Assembly (NCBI GenBank): GCA_012718855.1
Contig: JAAYBS010000063.1
Location: 1 to 40,368 of the forward strand
Source: Syntrophomonadaceae bacterium
GTDB taxonomy: Bacteria; Bacillota; Syntrophomonadia; Syntrophomonadales; Syntrophomonadaceae
Direction of reading: 5' to 3'
Length of the DNA stretch: 40,368 nt
The notes beneath the pieces were generated by a model that saw only the letters and a list, made by a program, of their open reading frames with translations, made no database searches and was not told the origin of the DNA. The stretch's first letter is position 1. Every line of letters begins with the position of its first letter. Both the position numbers and the translations under genes were made by a program. This document shows positions 2,719 to 28,448 of this stretch, piece by piece.

Positions 2719-4002
2719 TTAAAGATTAGTATCCCAATTATCCAGATATTCTTTTTGTTCATCAGTCAATTCATCTATGGAAATATTCATTGACTGCAAC
2801 TTTAAGCGGGCAACCCGCTGGTCAATTTCAGCTGGTACATTATAAACGTGATTTTCCAGTTTATCACGATTTTCAATAACATAAATCAGGGACAGGGCCT
2901 GCAAAGAAAAACTGAGATCCATGACTTCCGCCGGATGCCCGTCGCCAGCGGCCAAATTGACCAGACGGCCTTCAGCCAGTAGGTAAAGCTTGCGGCCATC
3001 TTCCATTACAAATTCTTCAATGTTGTTTTTCAGCAACCTATTACTTACTGCCAGAGCATTTAAGTCATCTTTACTGATTTCCACATCAAAATGACCGGCA
3101 TTTGCCATTATGGCATTATCCTTCATTAGTTTAAAATGCTCACCGCGAATAACATTTACATTTCCGGTAACGGTTATAAATATATCACCTAATTTAGCAG
3201 CTTTGCTCATAGGCATAACCTCAAATCCGTCCATTACAGCTTCATTGGCTTTAATCGGATCAATTTCGGTAATTATTACTTTGGCACCCATACCCAGAGC
3301 CCTCATGGAAACGCCTTTTCCGCACCATCCATAACCAACTACTACTACATACTTGCCGGCTACCACCAGGTTAGTAGTACGATTAATGCTATCCCATACC
3401 GATTGGCCAGTACCATAACGATTATCAAACAAGTATTTCATATAAGCATCATTAACTGCCATCATTGGAAAAAGCAAAGATCCATCTGCATCCATGGATT
3501 TAAGCCGTACAATTCCGGTAGTGGTTTCCTCACAACCGCCGATTATCTTGCGAGCCTGATCGACACGGCTTTTATGTAGCATGGTTACAACGTCGGCACC
3601 ATCATCAATAATTGCATCCGGCATGGTATCAAGGGTCATCTCCAGAAATTTATGATATTCTTCAGGTGATTCGCCGTGTATTGCATAAACTGTTATGCCA
3701 GAGTCAGCCAGGGCTGCAACTACGTCATCCTGTGTAGATAAGGGATTACTGGCACAGGCAACCACATCAGCACCAGCAGCTTTAAGTGTTTGCAGCAGAT
3801 AACCGGTTTTGGCTTCCAGATGCAGACAGCAGGCAATGGTTTTACCTGCCAGAGGTTTAGTCTGAATAAATTCTTCACGCAGAATGTTTAATACCGACAT
3901 ATTCTGACTAACCCATTTGAGTTTACGATATCCGTATTCCGCTAAAGCCGGATCCTTAATAATGGATTTACGGATTTGCATATTTTCAGGTACAGCGTTC
4001 AT
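2719..4002 (-). CDS. ahcY: S-adenosylhomocysteinase (SAH hydrolase)
   Basis: Cytoplasmic NAD-dependent enzyme that splits S-adenosylhomocysteine into adenosine and homocysteine, relieving product inhibition of SAM methyltransferases. At 427 residues it is the compact form without the insertion seen in many eukaryotic and bacterial enzymes. Visible landmarks: H61 in LHLEAKTG, D134 in [10 protein letters not shown]158/E159 in [11 protein letters not shown]189 and D193 in [11 protein letters not shown], and the NAD loop GYGWCGKG (223-230, GxGxxG). The C-terminus ends YLDNWDTNL as in homologues. The start is ATG with AAGGGGG upstream. It is divergent from the GT4-GH57-GH57-methyltransferase operon, so a methyltransferase that makes its substrate is encoded nearby. 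I see no SAH or SAM riboswitch in the 150 bases upstream. Confidence 0.97.
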
Positions 4003-4152
4003 TTAATTAGACCCCCTTGATTATTTGCACAGTATTTAGCTTAATGATATAGTTAGCCAAACATATAGAACATTATAAGTAAAAAACCTTACAATAGGAA
4101 TCTTAATCTGGTAATATGGTTAAAAATATAACAATGAATGAGGCGAATAGCT

Positions 4153-5340
4153 GTGAAGGTATTAATGTTTAGCTGGGAATACCCTCCTCACATGGTGGGT
4201 GGTTTAGGACAACATGTTTTCGATCTTAGTCGATTCCTGGCTCAACAAGGCATTACAGTACATATTATTACACCCGGAATTGAGAATCTATTGGGTTATG
4301 AAACTGAAAATGGGGTTCATATTCACCGGGTAGGTATATCGCAAAAAGAAGGTGAGGATTTTAAATCCTGGACCTTTACCTTCAATAGTGAAGCAATACG
4401 CAAGGCAGTTAGTGTTAATTCTCAGGTAGGAGGGTTTGATGTAGTTCATTCCCATGATTGGTTAGTAGCATATGCAGGCAGATCAGTAGCCAAGATTTTT
4501 GAGATACCTCTCGTGACTACCATTCATGCAACTGAACACGGCAGAAATATCGGCTTGCATAACCGTATGCAAATGGAAATTAATGAAATAGAAAAGAACC
4601 TTGCCCTGGATTCATCCCGGGTAATTTGCTGTAGTCAATATATGCAGGATGAAGTATGTAATTTATTTGGCCGCCCGCGTGAGGACCTTAGAATAATACC
4701 CAATGGGGTTGACCCGGATCTTTTTACCTCACTGCCTGTAACACCGAGATTTGATATTGGTGATGATGAACAGGTAGTTTTTTTTATAGGCAGATTGGTG
4801 CCGGAAAAAGGAGTCTGGCAATTAATCAATTGTTTTCCTGAGGTTTTAAAAGCTGTTCCGCAAGCAAAACTTTATATTGGCGGTCGGGGTCCGCAGAAGG
4901 TAGCTTTGGAGAAATTGGCCCGGGAAAATGGAATTGCTGATAAAGTCTATTTTACCGGATTTATTGCCAAAGAAGATCGCAACTATGTTTATAATCGTGC
5001 TAAAGTAGCCGTGTTCCCCAGTCTGTATGAACCATTTGGAATCGTAGCCCTCGAAGCAATGGCTACCAATACACCAGTAATTGTTGGTAATGTAGGCGGA
5101 TTAGCCGAAATTGTTTCTGATGGATTTAATGGTCTGAAAGTATCTCCCGGTTCTGAGGAAGAATTGGCTGCAGCCATAATCAAATTGTTGACTGATGAAA
5201 AATTAGCCGGCAATTTGCAGGATAACGGTTATCAAACGGTGAAATCTGTATACAGTTGGGAAGTTATTGCCAGTTCGACCATAGAAGTTTATAACGAAGT
5301 AATCAAAAGTATAGAGAGAGAAGCGAAGATTATTATCTGA
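4153..5340 (+). CDS. GT4 glycosyltransferase, glycogen-synthase-like
   Basis: Retaining GT-B glycosyltransferase, likely cytoplasmic and acting on alpha-glucans given its neighbours. The start is taken as GTG 4153, preceded by GAGG at 4140-4143 with 9 bases between. This gives the family-typical beginning V-KVLMFSWEYPPHMVGGLGQHV, whereas ATG 4138 adds five residues and has no ribosome site. The N-terminal domain carries the GGL donor-site loop; the C-terminal domain has FIGRLVPEKG and the retaining-enzyme E-x7-E motif in EPFGIVALEAMA. First gene of a four-gene plus-strand set (gaps of 44, 15 and 44 bases). GT4 proteins in front of GH57 branching enzymes usually act as ADP- or UDP-glucose-dependent glucan synthases; the donor here is unknown. 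Confidence 0.88.
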   Translation: MKVLMFSWEYPPHMVGGLGQHVFDLSRFLAQQGITVHIITPGIENLLGYETENGVHIHRVGISQKEGEDFKSWTFTFNSEAIRKAVSVNSQVGGFDVVHSHDWLVAYAGRSVAKIFEIPLVTTIHATEHGRNIGLHNRMQMEINEIEKNLALDSSRVICCSQYMQDEVCNLFGRPREDLRIIPNGVDPDLFTSLPVTPRFDIGDDEQVVFFIGRLVPEKGVWQLINCFPEVLKAVPQAKLYIGGRGPQKVALEKLARENGIADKVYFTGFIAKEDRNYVYNRAKVAVFPSLYEPFGIVALEAMATNTPVIVGNVGGLAEIVSDGFNGLKVSPGSEEELAAAIIKLLTDEKLAGNLQDNGYQTVKSVYSWEVIASSTIEVYNEVIKSIEREAKIII

Positions 5341-5384
5341 GCAAAATAATTGGTATTACACCTCGATAGGGGATGTGTGGCAGG

Positions 5385-6947
5385 GTGAATGGAAGAATAT
5401 TGTTAATGCTGCACAGTCATATTCCATACGTTAAAAGGCAGGGAAGATGGCCTTTTGGGGAAGTGTGGCTGTTTGAAGCAATGGCTGAGACTTACATACC
5501 ATTACTGAATAGTCTTATAAAGCTGAATGATGAGGGAGTAAATGCACCATTAACTTTCAGTTTTACCCCGGTGCTCCTGGAACAACTAAATTCCAAATAT
5601 ATTAAACATGAATTCGTTGAATACTTGCAGGAACGCGAGAGTATGGCCGGTGCTGATGAACGTTATTATTTATCTACCGGAGAAAATGAATATGCCCGTC
5701 TAGCGGCATATTATCGAGCCTATTATCGTGATATTCGCAGGGATTTTGAAATTGAATTTGACCGTAATATTATTCAAGTCCTAAAACAATTGCAAAACCA
5801 AGGGCGAATTGAAATTATTACTACCGCAGCAACCCATGCCTATTTGCCTTTATTGGATCAAGCTGGATTGGAAACCCAGGTATATTGGGGAAAGGAATTA
5901 TACAATAATGTATTTGACCGTGAACCGGAGGGGTTCTGGTTACCTGAATGCGGCTATTTCCAAGGCATAGAAGATATTTTAATTAAAAATGGATTTAAGT
6001 ATTTTTTTGTTGATAGTCATGCCATCGAAGGAGGCAAGCCAATAGGTATCTCCAGCCATGGTTTTCCTGATGAAGAAATCGAGATTGAAACTTTTGCTTC
6101 TACGGGTCTTAGTACATACCGGCCATACACTTTAAAAGATAATCAGATAACCGTATTTGGACGTAATGCTATGGTCAGTCATCAGGTATGGTCAGCTGAT
6201 TACGGATACCCGGGGGACGAAAATTATCGTGAGTTTCATAAACATTCCATGCGCTCCGGTTTTAAGTATTGGAAGGTCACTGATCGAAATCAGGCTATGG
6301 ATAAAAAGCAAGTTTACAATCCGGAAGAAGCACAGTTGAAAATTAAACAGCAGTCCTGGCATTTTGTAAATAGCCTGGTTAATACAGCTAAAAATGCGGC
6401 TAAATTAGGCTTCGCATCACCGTTAATAGTAGGCTGCTATGATACTGAGTTATTTGGACATTGGTGGTGGGAAGGTGTTGACTGGTTGGAAGCTGTAATT
6501 CGTTGTATTAACGATAACCCCAGTCTGGAATTGGTTTTACCCACTCAAGTTGGAAAGGGCAGGCATGAAGCGCAGGTATTTGAATCATCCTGGGGTATGG
6601 GTGGTAAGCATTATGTCTGGGAAAATACTGAAACCGCCTGGATGTGGGATATAATAAGACAATCCGGACGGGAATTTGAAGCGTTAAAATCCCGCACCTA
6701 TAACCAGGAGTTGGCTGATGTAGCTTTATCTCAGGCCTTAAAAGAACTAATGCTTATACAGAGCAGTGATTGGTTGTTTATGGTTAGTAATAACTTAACC
6801 AGGGATTATGCTATGAAAAGGTTCTTTGAACATTATGCCAAGTTACTTAGAATAAGCAATAGTTTACAAAATGATTCATTTGATGAGACCTTTTCAGAAT
6901 GGTTAAATCGAATTCAATATGAAGATGACTTTTTTAGTTGTCTGTAA
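5385..6947 (+). CDS. GH57 1,4-alpha-glucan branching enzyme (DUF1957 type)
   Basis: Cytoplasmic enzyme that cuts alpha-1,4-glucan and re-joins it as an alpha-1,6 branch. GTG 5385 is preferred because AGGGG (5368-5372) abuts ATG 5373 and cannot serve it; GTG 5385 yields VNGRILLMLHSHIPYVK, which matches the family N-terminus. GH57 motifs in order: HSHIPY near residue 10, GFWLPECGY with probable nucleophile Glu about 188, and YDTELFGHWWWEG with probable acid/base Asp about 353. These positions are close to the known 183 and 354 of the Thermococcus branching enzyme. The length of about 520 is normal, including the C-terminal helical domain. It follows the GT4 gene by 44 bases and precedes a second GH57 gene by 15, so all are probably co-transcribed. 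Confidence 0.92.
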   Translation: MNGRILLMLHSHIPYVKRQGRWPFGEVWLFEAMAETYIPLLNSLIKLNDEGVNAPLTFSFTPVLLEQLNSKYIKHEFVEYLQERESMAGADERYYLSTGENEYARLAAYYRAYYRDIRRDFEIEFDRNIIQVLKQLQNQGRIEIITTAATHAYLPLLDQAGLETQVYWGKELYNNVFDREPEGFWLPECGYFQGIEDILIKNGFKYFFVDSHAIEGGKPIGISSHGFPDEEIEIETFASTGLSTYRPYTLKDNQITVFGRNAMVSHQVWSADYGYPGDENYREFHKHSMRSGFKYWKVTDRNQAMDKKQVYNPEEAQLKIKQQSWHFVNSLVNTAKNAAKLGFASPLIVGCYDTELFGHWWWEGVDWLEAVIRCINDNPSLELVLPTQVGKGRHEAQVFESSWGMGGKHYVWENTETAWMWDIIRQSGREFEALKSRTYNQELADVALSQALKELMLIQSSDWLFMVSNNLTRDYAMKRFFEHYAKLLRISNSLQNDSFDETFSEWLNRIQYEDDFFSCL

Positions 6948-6962
6948 TTTTGGAGGTGCTTT

Positions 6963-9464
6963 ATGAAGGGGCATATTGCTTTTTGCCCTCATTTTCATCA
7001 GCCTCATTTTCAGTTATATCGTACCAGGGAAGAAGCTTTTCATAATTCTTATATTCCCTGGCTAAGGCTTTTAAATGAGGCGGTTGGTTTAAATGATTTT
7101 TTTATAAATTTACATTTTTCCGGTCCTTTTCTCTATTGGATGCAGGATCAAAAACCAGAGTATATTAATCAGTTAAAAGAACTGAACAGCAGTAATAAAA
7201 TTGGTTTTATCGGCGGTTTGGCCGATGAATCTTTTATTCAATTATCTTCACGTAACGATGACTATCTCTATCAACTTGCTCATTATGATGCATTATTGAC
7301 AAAGCTGGTGGGGATAAATGCCAGTCAATGGCAGGGAATTCATTTAGTAGAGCGTGAATGTGGTGAAATGACATTGCACCGAACTATTCATGCTGCCGGC
7401 CGATTAAATGCACCTCCTATTGTGTATCTGGATGCAGAAACATTTTATGAGTCTCACTTTGCCTATCCGGGTTCAGAATATGATTTTTGCCTTAAACATT
7501 TTGGCTTTAAAGACCCTTTTTCCAAAACGACTATCAGTCATATACCTCAGGATATGCTTTTTTTCGGATTGCGTGATGAAATTGGCGGACAGGAGTTTTT
7601 TAGTTTTCCAGTACATAGTCAGTTTCGTTATCAATTATTAAAGCGTCATAGTTTTACTTTTGATGACAAAGTTAAAATTAAACCCTCCCATTATTATTTC
7701 TATATTAAAGATGCGCTGGAAAGAGCTTATGAAACTATAAATAATTTCGGTGAGGATAAGGAACCAATTCTGATTATTTTTGAAGATGCTGAGAAGTTTG
7801 GACAATGGAGCAAAGACCCGGATGGAGATCACGAATGGTTAATGGAATTTTTCCGATTAGTAGATCGTGATGCTGATTTGAAGTTTACTGGGCTGAAAGA
7901 TTATTTACAACAATATGGATTTTTAGATACCTACCCGGTTAGTTCCAGTCATAGTTATCCGGAATGGGAAAACTGGACCGCCAAACGTGGTATCAGAGGA
8001 GTAACTTTTGGTGATGAAAGATTACGCCGCATTATGTGCCGTTTGCGTGATGTCGAAGATCAACAGGATATTTTTGAAAAGCATTTATTAACCAGTCCTG
8101 ACATTATCTCTCCTGAATATAAGTATCTGAAGGATTTAATTGAACGTTCCATGCTGGAGTCCCCGGAGCGGTATTTGTTTATTGAAGAAATATTAAAAGA
8201 ACAGTTACCTGAAATTGCGCACAAATATAGCCTGATTAATCGCGTAAGAAATTTGGTTTACCAGGAAGATCCTAAATGGGCGAGTCGTCATCCCAGTTAC
8301 GGTTCATCGCCTTTTTATGATATGCAGGGTATTGCTTATCTGGAATTGACTTACCGTCTATTGGAAATGATTAATCAGCAGTCAGGTCTTAAAACAACTC
8401 CGGAAATACAGGTCAGAGACTGGGATTTTGATGGCAAAAATGAAGTTTTATTTACAAATAGTGAACAGGTATTAGTAATTGATTGCCAGGGCGGTTGCGT
8501 TTCATATCATCATGTATTGAACCCACAAACAAATAATTATACAGACTTAATTGAAGAGCTGTTAGGTGCTGATGTTTTAAGCTTAAAAACTTATAACTCG
8601 ATTTACCGCCACTCTTATCCACTGGTATTTACAGAAGTTGACAGTGATATTTCTCCCCGGCTGTATCCTGAAGGTGGCAGACGTGAGGTAGGTCGTAATG
8701 CGTTGCGTTGTAATTTATATATGTTAAATGATGAACAGGAAATAGAAATTGGTAAGTTTTCATCCCGAGATTATAATCTGGATACGGTAGAACAAACTGA
8801 AGGTGGTTTAATTGCTGTGTTGTCAGCTAAAACTGATTTGAATTTATTAAATTCAAATGTTATACCGGTAGAACTTACTAAAAAGATTAGGGTTATGGAA
8901 AATTTTATGACGGTAACTTTTCATGTTAAGTTACCGGTTGAATACAACCATCTGGAATTGATATTAGCTCCTGAACTGGTGTGTTCAGCCTCCGCATCCG
9001 ATGAGGTGAACTTCCGTCCCCAAGCGTATATTGGTATAAATACTAAACCTGATGAGTCTGCAACCATACCTGTAAAGGTTTTAGATATTTCTACTAAGCA
9101 GGAGGATGGTTATGAGTTTACCAACCAGGAATATCAGACTGCAACACCTTATGAATTAAGTTATGTTTACCAGCTTTGTAATGCTGATGGCACCAGTTTT
9201 AGCAACCTGATAAGCTACTCACTGGTGGAAGCTAATAATTTGGATAGTATAGTAATTGAACCGGCAGTAAAATATTATTATCGTGATTATGTGTTTGAAG
9301 GTCAGAGCCGTTTAGGCTATCACACCTCCGGAGCATTAATAAGCCCCAGAGTTAAGTTGGTAAATGGTGAAGCATTAATTCAGGTTAAAATTAACTGGGA
9401 TTTTGAAACCAGTCAGCAGGAAGCCGATTATGATTTAGCAGTACATTTAATAACCGGTAATTAA
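6963..9464 (+). CDS. GH57 alpha-amylase / 4-alpha-glucanotransferase-like protein with C-terminal DUF1926-type region
   Basis: Large (833 residues) retaining glycoside hydrolase or transferase. The N-terminus MKGHIAFCPHFHQPH has the GH57 first motif. The nucleophile motif is the unusual LVERECGEM (Glu about 130) instead of the common ER-V-WEP. The acid/base motif is IIFEDAEKFGQW (Asp about 275), which fits the DDGEKFG motif of Thermococcus 4-alpha-glucanotransferase. Residues from about 440 onward form a beta-rich region (DWDFDGKNEVLFTN and following) like the C-terminal domain of that enzyme. ATG is preceded by GGAGG. It may trim or disproportionate the glucan made by its two upstream neighbours. 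Hydrolase versus transferase activity cannot be decided from sequence. Confidence 0.85.
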   Translation: MKGHIAFCPHFHQPHFQLYRTREEAFHNSYIPWLRLLNEAVGLNDFFINLHFSGPFLYWMQDQKPEYINQLKELNSSNKIGFIGGLADESFIQLSSRNDDYLYQLAHYDALLTKLVGINASQWQGIHLVERECGEMTLHRTIHAAGRLNAPPIVYLDAETFYESHFAYPGSEYDFCLKHFGFKDPFSKTTISHIPQDMLFFGLRDEIGGQEFFSFPVHSQFRYQLLKRHSFTFDDKVKIKPSHYYFYIKDALERAYETINNFGEDKEPILIIFEDAEKFGQWSKDPDGDHEWLMEFFRLVDRDADLKFTGLKDYLQQYGFLDTYPVSSSHSYPEWENWTAKRGIRGVTFGDERLRRIMCRLRDVEDQQDIFEKHLLTSPDIISPEYKYLKDLIERSMLESPERYLFIEEILKEQLPEIAHKYSLINRVRNLVYQEDPKWASRHPSYGSSPFYDMQGIAYLELTYRLLEMINQQSGLKTTPEIQVRDWDFDGKNEVLFTNSEQVLVIDCQGGCVSYHHVLNPQTNNYTDLIEELLGADVLSLKTYNSIYRHSYPLVFTEVDSDISPRLYPEGGRREVGRNALRCNLYMLNDEQEIEIGKFSSRDYNLDTVEQTEGGLIAVLSAKTDLNLLNSNVIPVELTKKIRVMENFMTVTFHVKLPVEYNHLELILAPELVCSASASDEVNFRPQAYIGINTKPDESATIPVKVLDISTKQEDGYEFTNQEYQTATPYELSYVYQLCNADGTSFSNLISYSLVEANNLDSIVIEPAVKYYYRDYVFEGQSRLGYHTSGALISPRVKLVNGEALIQVKINWDFETSQQEADYDLAVHLITGN

Positions 9465-9508
9465 AATTAACAGCTCAATATAGAATTATTAAAATTGGAG
9501 GTTGTTTA

Positions 9509-10717
9509 ATGATATTAAAGGAGTTTTTTGATTTTTATTTTGACAGGATTGATAGCGATGTACTAAAAGTTTATGAAGAATTGCTTCCTGCCAATAACAA
9601 CTTGGCCAGTGCTTATACAGAAATGTTTTCCCGTAATGATGACGAAGCCATAGCTTTCCTGTTGGATTTTCATCGGGCTACTTCAGAATTACGGAATCAA
9701 CAACCAAATCAGGCGATTCTTTTTAATGTACATAATAATGTGTGTTTTCCATTTTTCGTTGAATATTTATGGAAAGTCATGACTCCTGCCGAACGGGAAA
9801 AGCTGGTTGTTCAAACCGGCACTGATGATTTGAATGAAATAACCCGTAAGTTAAATGATGAAGTTGAACTGCGTAATTGGTTTCGTAAAGAGATTGGTTC
9901 TTCATTGAGTCAGCAGGATTTATTTACTTTAAACGAAATAATTGCCCTGCAAAACTTTTCCTCCGGAGGAGAATACTCATTTTTAAAATATGTTTACCCC
10001 AACATTCAGGAATTGGATGGTAAAGTATTGGATGCAGGCTGTGGTGCTGGTTTTGCCACTTTGGTTATGAGTCAGTATGCTTCAGTATATTCTATTGATG
10101 CCTGTCATGCCCGATTGGAAAGAGCCAAGGCATTATCAAATATGATGAAAAAAGGCGAAAAGACTATATTCCCTCAGGTAATTGATCTGATTGAAGAGGA
10201 ATTAGGGGGAATAGAAGTAGAATGTGAATTCCCTACTGCCCAAACGTTATTATCCGGAGATTCTAAAGAAGTTACCTTTGCAGTTGGCAGTATTGATGCC
10301 TTGCCTTATCCGGATAATTATTTTAATGCTATAAATTGTCTGGATGTTCTGGAGCATACTTTTGCGCCGGAGAAAATAGTTGAACAATTTTCCCGGGTAC
10401 TTAAACCGGGCGGCAGGGTATTTATAACAGCTCCTACCCGCTATGGTGAAGTTGAACAGCATATTCATGAGAGTATTGAAGGTACTATGTTCCCGGCTAT
10501 GCTGCATATGCACCATTTTGATCCTGAATCATTAACCAAAATGTTTGAACGTCACGGTTTTAAAGAAGTGGAAGTAACACCGTTTGATTATTTAAGTTGG
10601 GAAGGATTTCTTGAAATAGCAGATCGTTCACCGGCCAAAGAATTAGCTGACGAATTAAGAGCCAAGCCCTTTGATGAAGTGGCTTTGCAATTATTTGCCG
10701 TCTATGAAAAATTATAG
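9509..10717 (+). CDS. SAM-dependent methyltransferase (class I) at the end of the glucan operon
   Basis: Rossmann-fold methyltransferase in the C-terminal half: motif I VLDAGCGAGFATL about residues 174-186, an acidic end of beta2 in SIDACHARLERA, and a Methyltransf_11-like stretch INCLDVLEHTFAPEKIV followed by RVLKPGGRVFITAPTR. The first 160 or so residues are an alpha-helical region that I do not recognise. ATG is preceded by GGAGG. It is the last gene of the GT4-GH57-GH57 set and is followed by a strong terminator. Its place suggests methylation of a glucan or glucan precursor, as in methylated polysaccharides of some bacteria, but the acceptor is inferred from context only; protein or small-molecule targets remain possible. 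Confidence 0.85.
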   Translation: MILKEFFDFYFDRIDSDVLKVYEELLPANNNLASAYTEMFSRNDDEAIAFLLDFHRATSELRNQQPNQAILFNVHNNVCFPFFVEYLWKVMTPAEREKLVVQTGTDDLNEITRKLNDEVELRNWFRKEIGSSLSQQDLFTLNEIIALQNFSSGGEYSFLKYVYPNIQELDGKVLDAGCGAGFATLVMSQYASVYSIDACHARLERAKALSNMMKKGEKTIFPQVIDLIEEELGGIEVECEFPTAQTLLSGDSKEVTFAVGSIDALPYPDNYFNAINCLDVLEHTFAPEKIVEQFSRVLKPGGRVFITAPTRYGEVEQHIHESIEGTMFPAMLHMHHFDPESLTKMFERHGFKEVEVTPFDYLSWEGFLEIADRSPAKELADELRAKPFDEVALQLFAVYEKL

Positions 10718-10724
10718 ATAGATG

Positions 10725-10757
10725 AAAAAGAGAAGCCCCTTACGGGGTTTTTCTTTT
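10725..10757. terminator. Rho-independent terminator between convergent genes
   Basis: GCCCC-TTAC-GGGGT core, extended by A:T and G:U pairs on both sides, followed by TTTTTCTTTT on the plus strand and preceded by AAAAAGAGAA, so it can act in both directions. It ends the glucan operon and lies 7 bases from the stop of the opposing 3D-domain gene. Confidence 0.85.
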
Positions 10758-10763
10758 GCCTTA

Positions 10764-11282
10764 TTATCGCCATTTCTCCACCCAATAGTAGTCTATTAAA
10801 TCTGTACCGTAGTTTAAAGCTGCTTTGTTGCTATAGTAATTGGTTGTACCATGAAACACATCTATCCAGTACGGATATTCCGGCCATAACCGATAATTTA
10901 TATCACCGGTATCAATAACTTTCAGAGTATAATATTCATTACCCTGAATAGTTATTGGTCTGGATAAAACTATATCAGTATTAAATGGAATTATTGGTAC
11001 CCGAGGGTCACCGCCATATTGGCTGGGAACCAGGGGATGAACGGCGATGGTTCCCAGGGCATATTCTTTGCCGCCTGATGATATGGGTGCCTGAGCTGCC
11101 TCAGTATATGCAGTCGCCTTTTGACTCTTCACAGAAAATACCACATACCATTGAGGCTCAGAGCTATCAATTTGCGGTACCGGGGTTTTATCCGGTTCAG
11201 GTTGCCTGATTGCTACGGCTATAATCATAATAAATAATAATGCTAATGAAGCGAGTATCATTCGATTACTAATTTCAATCAT
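10764..11282 (-). CDS. Membrane-anchored 3D-domain (double-psi beta-barrel) cell-wall protein
   Basis: 172 residues: one N-terminal membrane anchor (about residues 8-25), a short linker rich in Pro and Glu, then a domain of about 120 residues outside the membrane. That domain has the 3D signature in order: ALGTIAVHPLVP, IPFNTDIVL, VIDTGDINYR and WIDVFHG, with the conserved aspartates of the MltA/3D barrel in VIDTGD and WIDVF. Known relatives such as the YabE/YuiC group act on peptidoglycan, in some cases during spore germination or resuscitation. AAAGGAG precedes the ATG. A partner cannot be named; it is transcribed alone. Confidence 0.75.
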   Translation of the reverse strand: MIEISNRMILASLALLFIMIIAVAIRQPEPDKTPVPQIDSSEPQWYVVFSVKSQKATAYTEAAQAPISSGGKEYALGTIAVHPLVPSQYGGDPRVPIIPFNTDIVLSRPITIQGNEYYTLKVIDTGDINYRLWPEYPYWIDVFHGTTNYYSNKAALNYGTDLIDYYWVEKWR

Positions 11283-11918: not shown

Positions 11919-12203
11919 ATGGATAATAGTTTAATAAAAACTAATAATTATACTGTATTTACCTTTACTTCTACATCAAATGCTCTTAAAGCTGAGAAAT
12001 TATTGAAAGAAATCAAAGCTGAATTTTTAATTATGCCAACTCTGAGAGAGATATCATCCAGTTGCGGCTTATCTATAAAACTTGCCTCAGAAAACCAACC
12101 GGTTTACTATCAATATCTGATTGATCATAATGTAGACATTGACGGTGCATATAATGTGGAAAAACAGGGCAAAAAAAATCTGGTCACCAAAGCCAGGCTC
12201 TGA
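11919..12203 (+). CDS. DUF3343 protein (putative Se/S carrier-like)
   Basis: 94 residues. The pattern YTVFTFTSTSNALKAEKLLKE, then IMPTLREISSSCGLSIKL, matches the small DUF3343 family, whose conserved Cys-Gly pair (here SSSCGL, Cys about residue 49) has been linked by context to selenium or sulfur carrier proteins such as YedF. The fold is expected to be ferredoxin-like. It is downstream of the thioesterase gene and upstream of a leader with three hairpins. Biochemical function is not established. Confidence 0.75.
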   Translation: MDNSLIKTNNYTVFTFTSTSNALKAEKLLKEIKAEFLIMPTLREISSSCGLSIKLASENQPVYYQYLIDHNVDIDGAYNVEKQGKKNLVTKARL

Positions 12204-27077: not shown

Positions 27078-28448
27078 TTAGATGTCCTGTTTATTGGTTC
27101 TTGCCCAAATCTTCATTTTTTCTGCTTCTTTAATTAACTCATCACGGAAATCCGGATGAGCAACACTAATTAATTCTTCTGCACGCTGCCAGGTGGTACG
27201 GCCTTTCATTAAAGCTATGCCGTATTCAGTTGCCACATAGAAATTTAACGAGCGTGGGATAGTTACAATTGTTCCCGGGGAAAGAGTGGGTCTGATCCTG
27301 GATACTACTGTTCCGTCCCGCATAGTTTTGGTGGAAGATAAACAGATAAACCCTTTTCCACCTTTGGAGCGGAAGGAAGCAAATATGAAATCCAACTGAC
27401 CACCCGTTCCTGATATTTGTCTGGTTCCGGAAGCTTCAGAAGCTACCTGACCATAAAGGTCTACTTCAATAGCATTATTTATAGCAAATACCTTATCATT
27501 CATAGCGATAACAGCCGGGTCATTAGTATAATGAACCGGATAACTTGCACATACCGGATTATGGTCCAGGAAGTTATATAACTTATCAGTTCCCATGGCA
27601 AAGGTATAAACCATTTTTCCTTTATCTATGCTCTTGCGTTTGCCGGTAACTCGTCCACTCTCATGCATATCAACAAATGAATCAACCAGCATCTCGGTAT
27701 GAATACCTAAATCTTTTAGATCGGATTCAGCAATCATTGCCCCTATCGCATTGGGCATAGCTCCTATTCCTAATTGCAAACATGCTCCGTCTTCCATTTG
27801 CTCCATTACGACTCGAGCAATTGCTTCATCAGTCTCGGAGATTTTTGTGGGGGGCAGATTTAATAATTTTGGATTAGTCTGGCTTTCTACAATATAATCC
27901 ACCTGACTGATATGAATACCTTCTCCATTACCGCCCAGACAAACCGGTACGGAAGTGTTAACCTCTACAACTACTCTTTTAGCCTTTTCAACTACATAAG
28001 AAGTAATCGAATTTGAAGTACCAATATTAAAATATCCGTTACGGTCCATAGGAGCAACCAGCACAAAGGCCACATCAATCTGTACAAATTCTTCTATTAA
28101 TTTTCGGGCTTCATGATAAGTGATGGGAATGTAATTACATAGATTTTGCTCATGCAGGGCTCTTGAGAAACCTGAAAAATGCCAGTCATTAAAACGGAAA
28201 TGTTCTCTTTTGGGATCAGCTTTAACGATTTCAGGGATCATAGTAATAGTTACCGTACGCACCTTGACATCTTCCAGTTCGTTAACTCTTCTGGCCAATG
28301 CTGCATCCAGATCTTTTGGCTGCATTACAAATTCACCATATTGAACCCAATCCCCGGACTTAACTATTTTCACTGCTTCATCGGCTGATACCAGTTTATC
28401 CTGATATTGGTCCATATAATCGTTTGTACCGTTTAACATTAACGCCAT
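27078..28448 (-). CDS. Acetyl-CoA hydrolase/transferase family CoA-transferase (butyryl-CoA:acetate or 4-hydroxybutyrate type)
   Basis: 456 residues, full length for the family I type that swaps CoA between carboxylic acids through a glutamyl-CoA intermediate. The catalytic Glu is in INNAIEVDLYGQVASE; the glycine-rich oxyanion segments GNGEGIHISQVDY and ISGTGGQLDFIFAS are conserved, as is LQLGIGAMPNAI. In butyrate oxidisers such an enzyme activates butyrate with acetyl-CoA, while fermenters use it in reverse to make butyrate and acetyl-CoA. Direction is not readable here. GGGAGGAGG lies in front of the ATG. Transcription is predicted from the sigma-54 promoter 28636-28652, giving a leader of about 175 bases, under the convergent activator. 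Confidence 0.92.
   Translation of the reverse strand: MALMLNGTNDYMDQYQDKLVSADEAVKIVKSGDWVQYGEFVMQPKDLDAALARRVNELEDVKVRTVTITMIPEIVKADPKREHFRFNDWHFSGFSRALHEQNLCNYIPITYHEARKLIEEFVQIDVAFVLVAPMDRNGYFNIGTSNSITSYVVEKAKRVVVEVNTSVPVCLGGNGEGIHISQVDYIVESQTNPKLLNLPPTKISETDEAIARVVMEQMEDGACLQLGIGAMPNAIGAMIAESDLKDLGIHTEMLVDSFVDMHESGRVTGKRKSIDKGKMVYTFAMGTDKLYNFLDHNPVCASYPVHYTNDPAVIAMNDKVFAINNAIEVDLYGQVASEASGTRQISGTGGQLDFIFASFRSKGGKGFICLSSTKTMRDGTVVSRIRPTLSPGTIVTIPRSLNFYVATEYGIALMKGRTTWQRAEELISVAHPDFRDELIKEAEKMKIWARTNKQDI

Follow-up and report, generated by a model that had tools for sequence, protein, structure and literature searches.

The gene block and its surroundings

The window, that is, the whole stretch of 40,368 nucleotides from a Syntrophomonadaceae bacterium that was analysed, carries a block of four genes read in one direction and separated by gaps of only 32, 15 and 44 bp (Table 1). 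The gene ahcY diverges from its upstream end, with spoIIP lying on the far side of ahcY. Since the homologues of GT4 begin at VK(V/I)LMFSW, which matches the residue at GTG 4153, this codon is probably the true start of the gene rather than 4138. The hairpin that follows MT has the longest stem among 10 terminator-like matches, a count that is itself within chance (9.3 +/- 3.4 in shuffles). The earlier note had described a closely spaced GT4-BE-GH57L-MT series ending at one terminator with a divergent ahcY, and the open reading frames, protein families, gaps and hairpin all agree with this description.

Table 1. Features of the block and of its neighbourhood (window coordinates).
Feature	Position	Strand	Basis and presumed role
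ahcY, S-adenosylhomocysteine hydrolase	2719..4002	-	TIGR00936 616 bits, cut-off 497.6
Putative GT4-operon promoter TTACAA-17-TAATAT	4089..4117	+	Conserved in most block-bearing family members
GT4 glycosyltransferase	4138..5340	+	PF00534/PF13439/PF08323; presumed alpha-1,4-glucan elongation from nucleotide-glucose
GH57 1,4-alpha-glucan branching enzyme (BE)	5373..6947	+	PF03065 139 bits, PF09210 68 bits
GH57L, 833 aa, 4-alpha-glucanotransferase-like, C-terminal beta-sandwich	6963..9464	+	PF03065 N-terminal match; presumed trimming/disproportionation
Class I SAM-dependent methyltransferase (MT), 402 aa	9509..10717	+	PF13489/PF08241 over cut-off
MT N-terminal helical region, residues 1-161	9509..9991	+	Model; no Pfam family
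Intrinsic-terminator-like hairpin after MT	10726..10757	+	14-pair stem, T-rich tail
172-aa protein	10764-11282	-
Se/S carrier-like small protein	11919-12203	+	PF11823
Butyryl-CoA:acetate CoA-transferase-like protein	27078-28448	-	583 bits, cut-off 675

The putative block promoter is close to the -10 element of ahcY on the opposite strand, and all 20 block loci that were measured retain a divergent promoter region of 119-177 bp between ahcY and GT4, making co-regulation of ahcY and the block through this region possible. A SAH or SAM riboswitch as a link between ahcY and the operon was considered and rejected, as none reached the gathering score in the window and none appeared at E<=5 in positions 3900-4400.

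Beyond the block, the gene of the 172-aa protein is convergent with MT; neither Pfam nor NCBIfam gives its product a match over cut-off, and many family genomes retain the gene next to either the block or ahcY. The Se/S carrier-like gene is flanked by a 4HBT thioesterase gene and dinG, and much of the order retains these three genes together. The CoA-transferase-like protein, with its score below cut-off, fits syntrophic butyrate metabolism.

The best NCBIfam match of GT4 is glgA_Coryne (178 bits, below the cut-off of 302), and its PDB relatives include Tll1590 (6kih) and an alpha-maltose-1-phosphate synthase (6tvp). Against TIGR02095, the profile of canonical, GT5-type GlgA, it scores 68.8 bits, far below the cut-off of 328.45. 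BE aligns over its full length with the P. horikoshii (5wu7) and TK1436 (3n8t) enzymes and keeps the LPECGY and YDTELFGHWW motifs. PF03065 and PF09210, corresponding to the GH57 catalytic domain and the branching enzyme C-terminal domain, were found in 14/14 aligned members, in which E192 and D357 are invariant; these residues, aligned with 5wu7/3n8t, are presumably the nucleophile and the acid.

The sole PDB profile match of GH57L is 1k1w, the Thermococcus litoralis 4-alpha-glucanotransferase. Its model (pLDDT 77.4) superposes on 1k1x over both domains (Z 25.7, rmsd 3.0), with the next different protein at Z 18.2, although the two sequences share only 19% identity over the 518 aligned residues. 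EDAEKFGQW of GH57L, whose residues are invariant in 21 sequences but for one, aligns with DDGEKFGVW of 1k1w in what we take to be the catalytic acid region. The VERE motif, a candidate for the nucleophile Glu in a stretch outside the profile alignment to 1k1w, is likewise invariant in the 21 sequences. As modelled, GH57L has the two-domain GH57 fold of the T. litoralis enzyme, and transferase activity is predicted.

The MT motifs LD.GCGAG and NCLDV.EHT are conserved in 14 family members. From around residue 150 onward, the model (pLDDT 88.5) has the ordinary fold of class I enzymes, with a structural match to 1xxl at Z 18.8 and with the Rossmann methyltransferase fold and motif I present; for residues 1-161, Pfam gives no match at E<=1. 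The structures most similar to the model form a mixed set of methyltransferases acting on small molecules, in which the sugar O-methyltransferases RebM and AtmM are included without being ahead. No MeT1-type mannoside methyltransferase is named among the PDB profile matches of MT at E<=1e-3, an absence that proves nothing.

Conservation and loss among relatives

Among 54 Syntrophomonadaceae genomes, MT was found in 23 and BE in 24, and the lone mismatch (G041) carries BE on a 3.7-kb contig that ends about 1 kb away from the gene. When 20 of the 22 other MT-positive family genomes were compared, the GT4-BE-GH57L-MT order was kept in 19 loci and the divergent ahcY in 18, all exceptions being contig ends, and each block contained one MT gene. 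Such an arrangement is far beyond chance. Across the 63 genomes of the order, MT occurs in 28, namely the 23 of its own family, 5/5 of the sister family f3 and 0/4 of family f2, and no MT without BE was seen in the 63 at E<=1e-20; the genomes are relatives, and these co-occurrence counts are not independent.

The f3 blocks keep the gene order with an NTP-transferase/phosphomutase gene inserted after GT4, which suggests nucleotide-sugar supply, and ahcY is present in 4/5 of these loci, the fifth being cut off. The genome of the window has an unlinked sugar-nucleotidyltransferase that is 42% identical over residues 1-351. Pairwise MT distances track the GT4 and BE distances (r 0.82 for both in the family alone; 0.95 and 0.89, respectively, once f3 is included) and, less closely, those of AhcY (r 0.64 in the family alone and 0.91 with f3).

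Across 398 genomes of the phylum, the set of six with MT at full length is identical to the set with GH57L at full length, all six lying within the order; BE is more widespread (87 genomes). Twenty BE loci outside the order were inspected, a non-random sample drawn mostly from the higher-scoring BE matches among the 87 genomes, in which GT4 was nearby in 13 and GH57L, an MT of this kind and an ahcY match in none; 10 of the ORFs neighbouring these and the f3 loci were named by Pfam, the others being compared with the proteins of the window only. Since these related GT4-branching loci are devoid of such an MT, it is dispensable to the glucan pathway.

Two further observations concern genomes outside the order. 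A seventh, partial GH57L-like match (L215, G197:C1:266373-266885; profile residues 361-539, E 5.7e-21) sits in a 647-aa frame. In addition, loci L113-L115, L117-L119, L121, L123 and L125 share a module composed of GT4, a gene of about 830 aa and two GH57 branching genes. The long gene of L113, the one tested by Pfam, is an NTP-transferase/phosphomutase fusion, and the GH57 pair consists of a divergent branching paralogue (30-33% identical to BE of the window) and a branching enzyme (37-41%).

Sites without the block were examined at ahcY in 15 of the 35 order genomes that have no MT match. In all 15, spoIIP adjoins ahcY; the other flank, sought as the 172-aa gene, 4HBT thioesterase, Se/S carrier or dinG, is visible beyond ahcY within the stretch in 11 and was not seen in 4. 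No remnant of any of the four block genes was found in the 15 sites; L197 has one weak GT4 match (22%) beyond an MFS gene on the far side. A promoter-like scar upstream of ahcY is present at two sites, each scoring above all 200 dinucleotide shuffles, and none was found at the remaining 13. The two sites are in G032 and in G048, a genome with four genus-mates, every one of them a carrier of the block. These two scars favour loss over repeated transfer at the sites concerned. On an AhcY tree of 43 rows from the 54 genomes with AhcY (11 left out, the broken AhcY frames in G038 and G023 included; G041 taken as a carrier), the distribution of the block needs at least eight changes, four of them forced by supported branches. 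The co-occurrence, the intact flanks at empty sites and the promoter scars together indicate that the four genes are inherited and lost as a unit, and our reading is that both families had the block at this site from early on and that all four genes were repeatedly lost together.

Different ORFs lie between ahcY and the 172-aa gene in different block-less genomes (L183-L197), the spacer ranging from about 130 bp in L188 and L189 to several kb in L183 and L191, and the site seems prone to turnover.

The earlier note had named a lack of conservation between MT and the operon as the finding that would speak against it. Co-occurrence, fixed order, joint divergence and joint loss were found instead: MT belongs to the glucan block, which is an order-restricted four-gene unit. 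The recycling of SAH by ahcY, also put forward there as part of the system, fared differently. Regardless of the block, ahcY is present in 34/35 good genomes of the order (54/63 genomes overall) and holds the same position in 15/15 block-less loci. Being present and placed alike without the block, it was rejected as evidence for dedicated SAH recycling; ahcY is a fixed neighbour, outside the unit that is lost.

A candidate pathway and its alternatives

The block can be viewed as a dedicated pathway for a cytoplasmic, branched and O-methylated alpha-glucan or malto-oligosaccharide. GT4, as its family would have it, would add alpha-1,4-linked glucose from nucleotide-glucose, and BE, judging from family and motifs, would introduce the alpha-1,6 branches. 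GH57L, to which family and fold assign this role, would cut and re-join alpha-1,4 segments and so set the chain length. MT, placed in the pathway by gene linkage, would move methyl groups from SAM to hydroxyls of the glucan, the resulting SAH presumably being cleaved by the general AhcY encoded next door. We lean, with moderate confidence, towards MT methylating the glucan and the block yielding such a product, even though no sequence feature of MT points to sugar, which counts against it. Also counting against it are the GT4-branching loci outside the order that do without such an MT, the result that GpgS exceeds its cut-off in none of the 63 order genomes, and the looser agreement of MT distances with those of AhcY. 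The earlier note had the locus building, branching, trimming and methylating an alpha-glucan; what stands of this is that MT and the glucan genes are one conserved unit, while the methylated product keeps its conditional status.

An ordinary glycogen operon was also considered and discarded, as the score of GT4 is far below what GlgA requires and GlgA is encoded separately in the f3 carriers. Canonical GlgA exceeds its cut-off (TIGR02095, 328.45 bits) in 11/63 order genomes, which comprise 1/23 of the family carriers, 5/5 of the f3 carriers and 5 non-carriers. Having a separate GlgA, the f3 carriers would not use the block as the ordinary storage route, and in most of its own family the block may be the only alpha-glucan route. 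The case for a storage role of the glucan is weak.

Among the alternatives, the one that survives best is that the target of MT is a small pathway molecule, be it a primer, a cap at the reducing end or a glucosylated compatible solute, with the polymer itself not being polymethylated. The small-molecule character of the structural neighbours of MT and the single MT gene per block would both suit this explanation, as would the precedent of the 1-O-methyltransferase of mycobacterial methylmannose polysaccharide (MMP), which caps only the reducing end (PMC9883506, in excerpt). It is nevertheless unlikely, since no GpgS-type initiator exceeds its cut-off in the order and the block holds no candidate gene for a small molecule.

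The product could also belong to the envelope or the spore as a glycan, or be a glycolipid, with methylation as a surface decoration. The proximity of spoIIP in the loci seen points in that direction, as do the frequency of glycolipid synthesis among GT4 proteins and the many weak profile matches of this kind. However, spoIIP remains where the block is absent, no exporter, acyltransferase or membrane protein is encoded in the block, and the pairing of GT4 with a branching enzyme fits an intracellular alpha-glucan from what is generally known of these families, all of which makes this explanation decidedly improbable. Least probable of all is that MT is a co-transcribed hitch-hiker acting on unrelated RNA, lipid or protein, for although class I methyltransferases of many specificities match it weakly, MT was not seen without the block, is lost with it and, at 41-42% identity, still occupies the last position of the operon in two families.

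Returning to the methylated glucan, its possible use may be considered in light of the carriers. Named carriers of the block include Syntrophomonas palmitatica, S. zehnderi and Thermosyntropha lipolytica, and Ca. Syntrophocurvum alkaliphilum (G034) also carries it. G037, which we take to be S. wolfei Goettingen, is without the block, and G151 is presumably Syntrophothermus lipocalidus. In digesters, S. palmitatica and S. zehnderi are said to be the most important degraders of long-chain fatty acids (PMC10308230, in excerpt), and T. lipolytica, going by the title of a cited paper, lives on both short and long chains. The substrates of S. wolfei are C4-C8 acids (PMC5626996, in excerpt), with one of its subspecies being counted among the long-chain users (PMC10308230, in excerpt). 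A strict link between the block and long-chain fatty acids was dropped because Ca. S. alkaliphilum, a carrier, grows on butyrate (PMC7005122), and the distribution is suggestive at most. Polymers of the type of MMP and of methylglucose lipopolysaccharide (MGLP), both mycobacterial, are said to sequester fatty acyl-CoA (PMC2581804, in excerpt), although a mutant study doubted an effect on fatty acids (PMC2674218, in excerpt). By analogy, a polymethylated alpha-glucan of the syntrophs might bind long-chain acyl-CoA and buffer the pool of a thermodynamically limited beta-oxidation, which we regard as a quite doubtful proposition. A four-gene block in cultured, fatty-acid-using Firmicutes would offer an independent system for asking what methylated glucans are for. 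With the block naturally present in some close relatives and missing from others at a single fixed site, clean comparisons among them are possible; since cultured carriers exist, the question is directly testable.

Comparison with known systems

To our knowledge, polymethylated polysaccharides are known only from actinobacteria, where their role is disputed. Judging by the genes, syntrophic Firmicutes may produce a methylated polysaccharide similar to the mycobacterial ones. Nothing pertinent to a methylated glucan in Syntrophomonas or Firmicutes was found among the matches listed in the open-licence literature.

The nearest comparison is the MGLP cluster of M. tuberculosis, in which we take Rv3031 to be a GH57 protein, Rv3032 a GT4 protein and Rv3030 to be smaller than the MT described here. 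In that cluster, Rv3032 elongates, Rv3031 is of the branching type and Rv3030 is called a 6-O-methyltransferase, so that a methyltransferase, a branching-type protein and an alpha-1,4-glucosyltransferase are likewise clustered, there for a 6-O-methylglucan (PMC2674218, PMC4555173, both in excerpt); Rv3032 is restricted to MGLP-like oligomers (PMC4981310, in excerpt). The block differs in having the additional GH57 4-alpha-glucanotransferase-like gene and in the added N-terminal part of MT, of about 150 aa. Moreover, GpgS, the initiator of MGLP (NF010496), was over cut-off in 0/63 order genomes with a profile whose control was over cut-off in 1/14, and, as GpgS was not found, the block is not the MGLP pathway. 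The two would thus resemble each other on paper, being likened by gene kinds, with the block not classed as a member.

The GT4 - NTP-transferase/phosphomutase - GH57 branching modules of Firmicutes outside the order share with the block the closeness of GT4 to BE (13/20) but differ from it in GH57L, MT and the ahcY match (0/20 each). The MMP cluster (MeT1, MmpH, pMeT3 and ManT) also brings together a glycosyltransferase, a chain-cutting enzyme and a methyltransferase (PMC9883506, in excerpt). It differs from the block in acting on mannose instead of glucose, in the fold of its hydrolase, in having two methyltransferases and in having no branching enzyme; by analogy, GH57L could fill the place of its chain-cutting enzyme. 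The "new type" of polysaccharide raised as a possibility in the earlier note is tempered by the mycobacterial MGLP precedent (PMC2674218, PMC4555173, both in excerpt).
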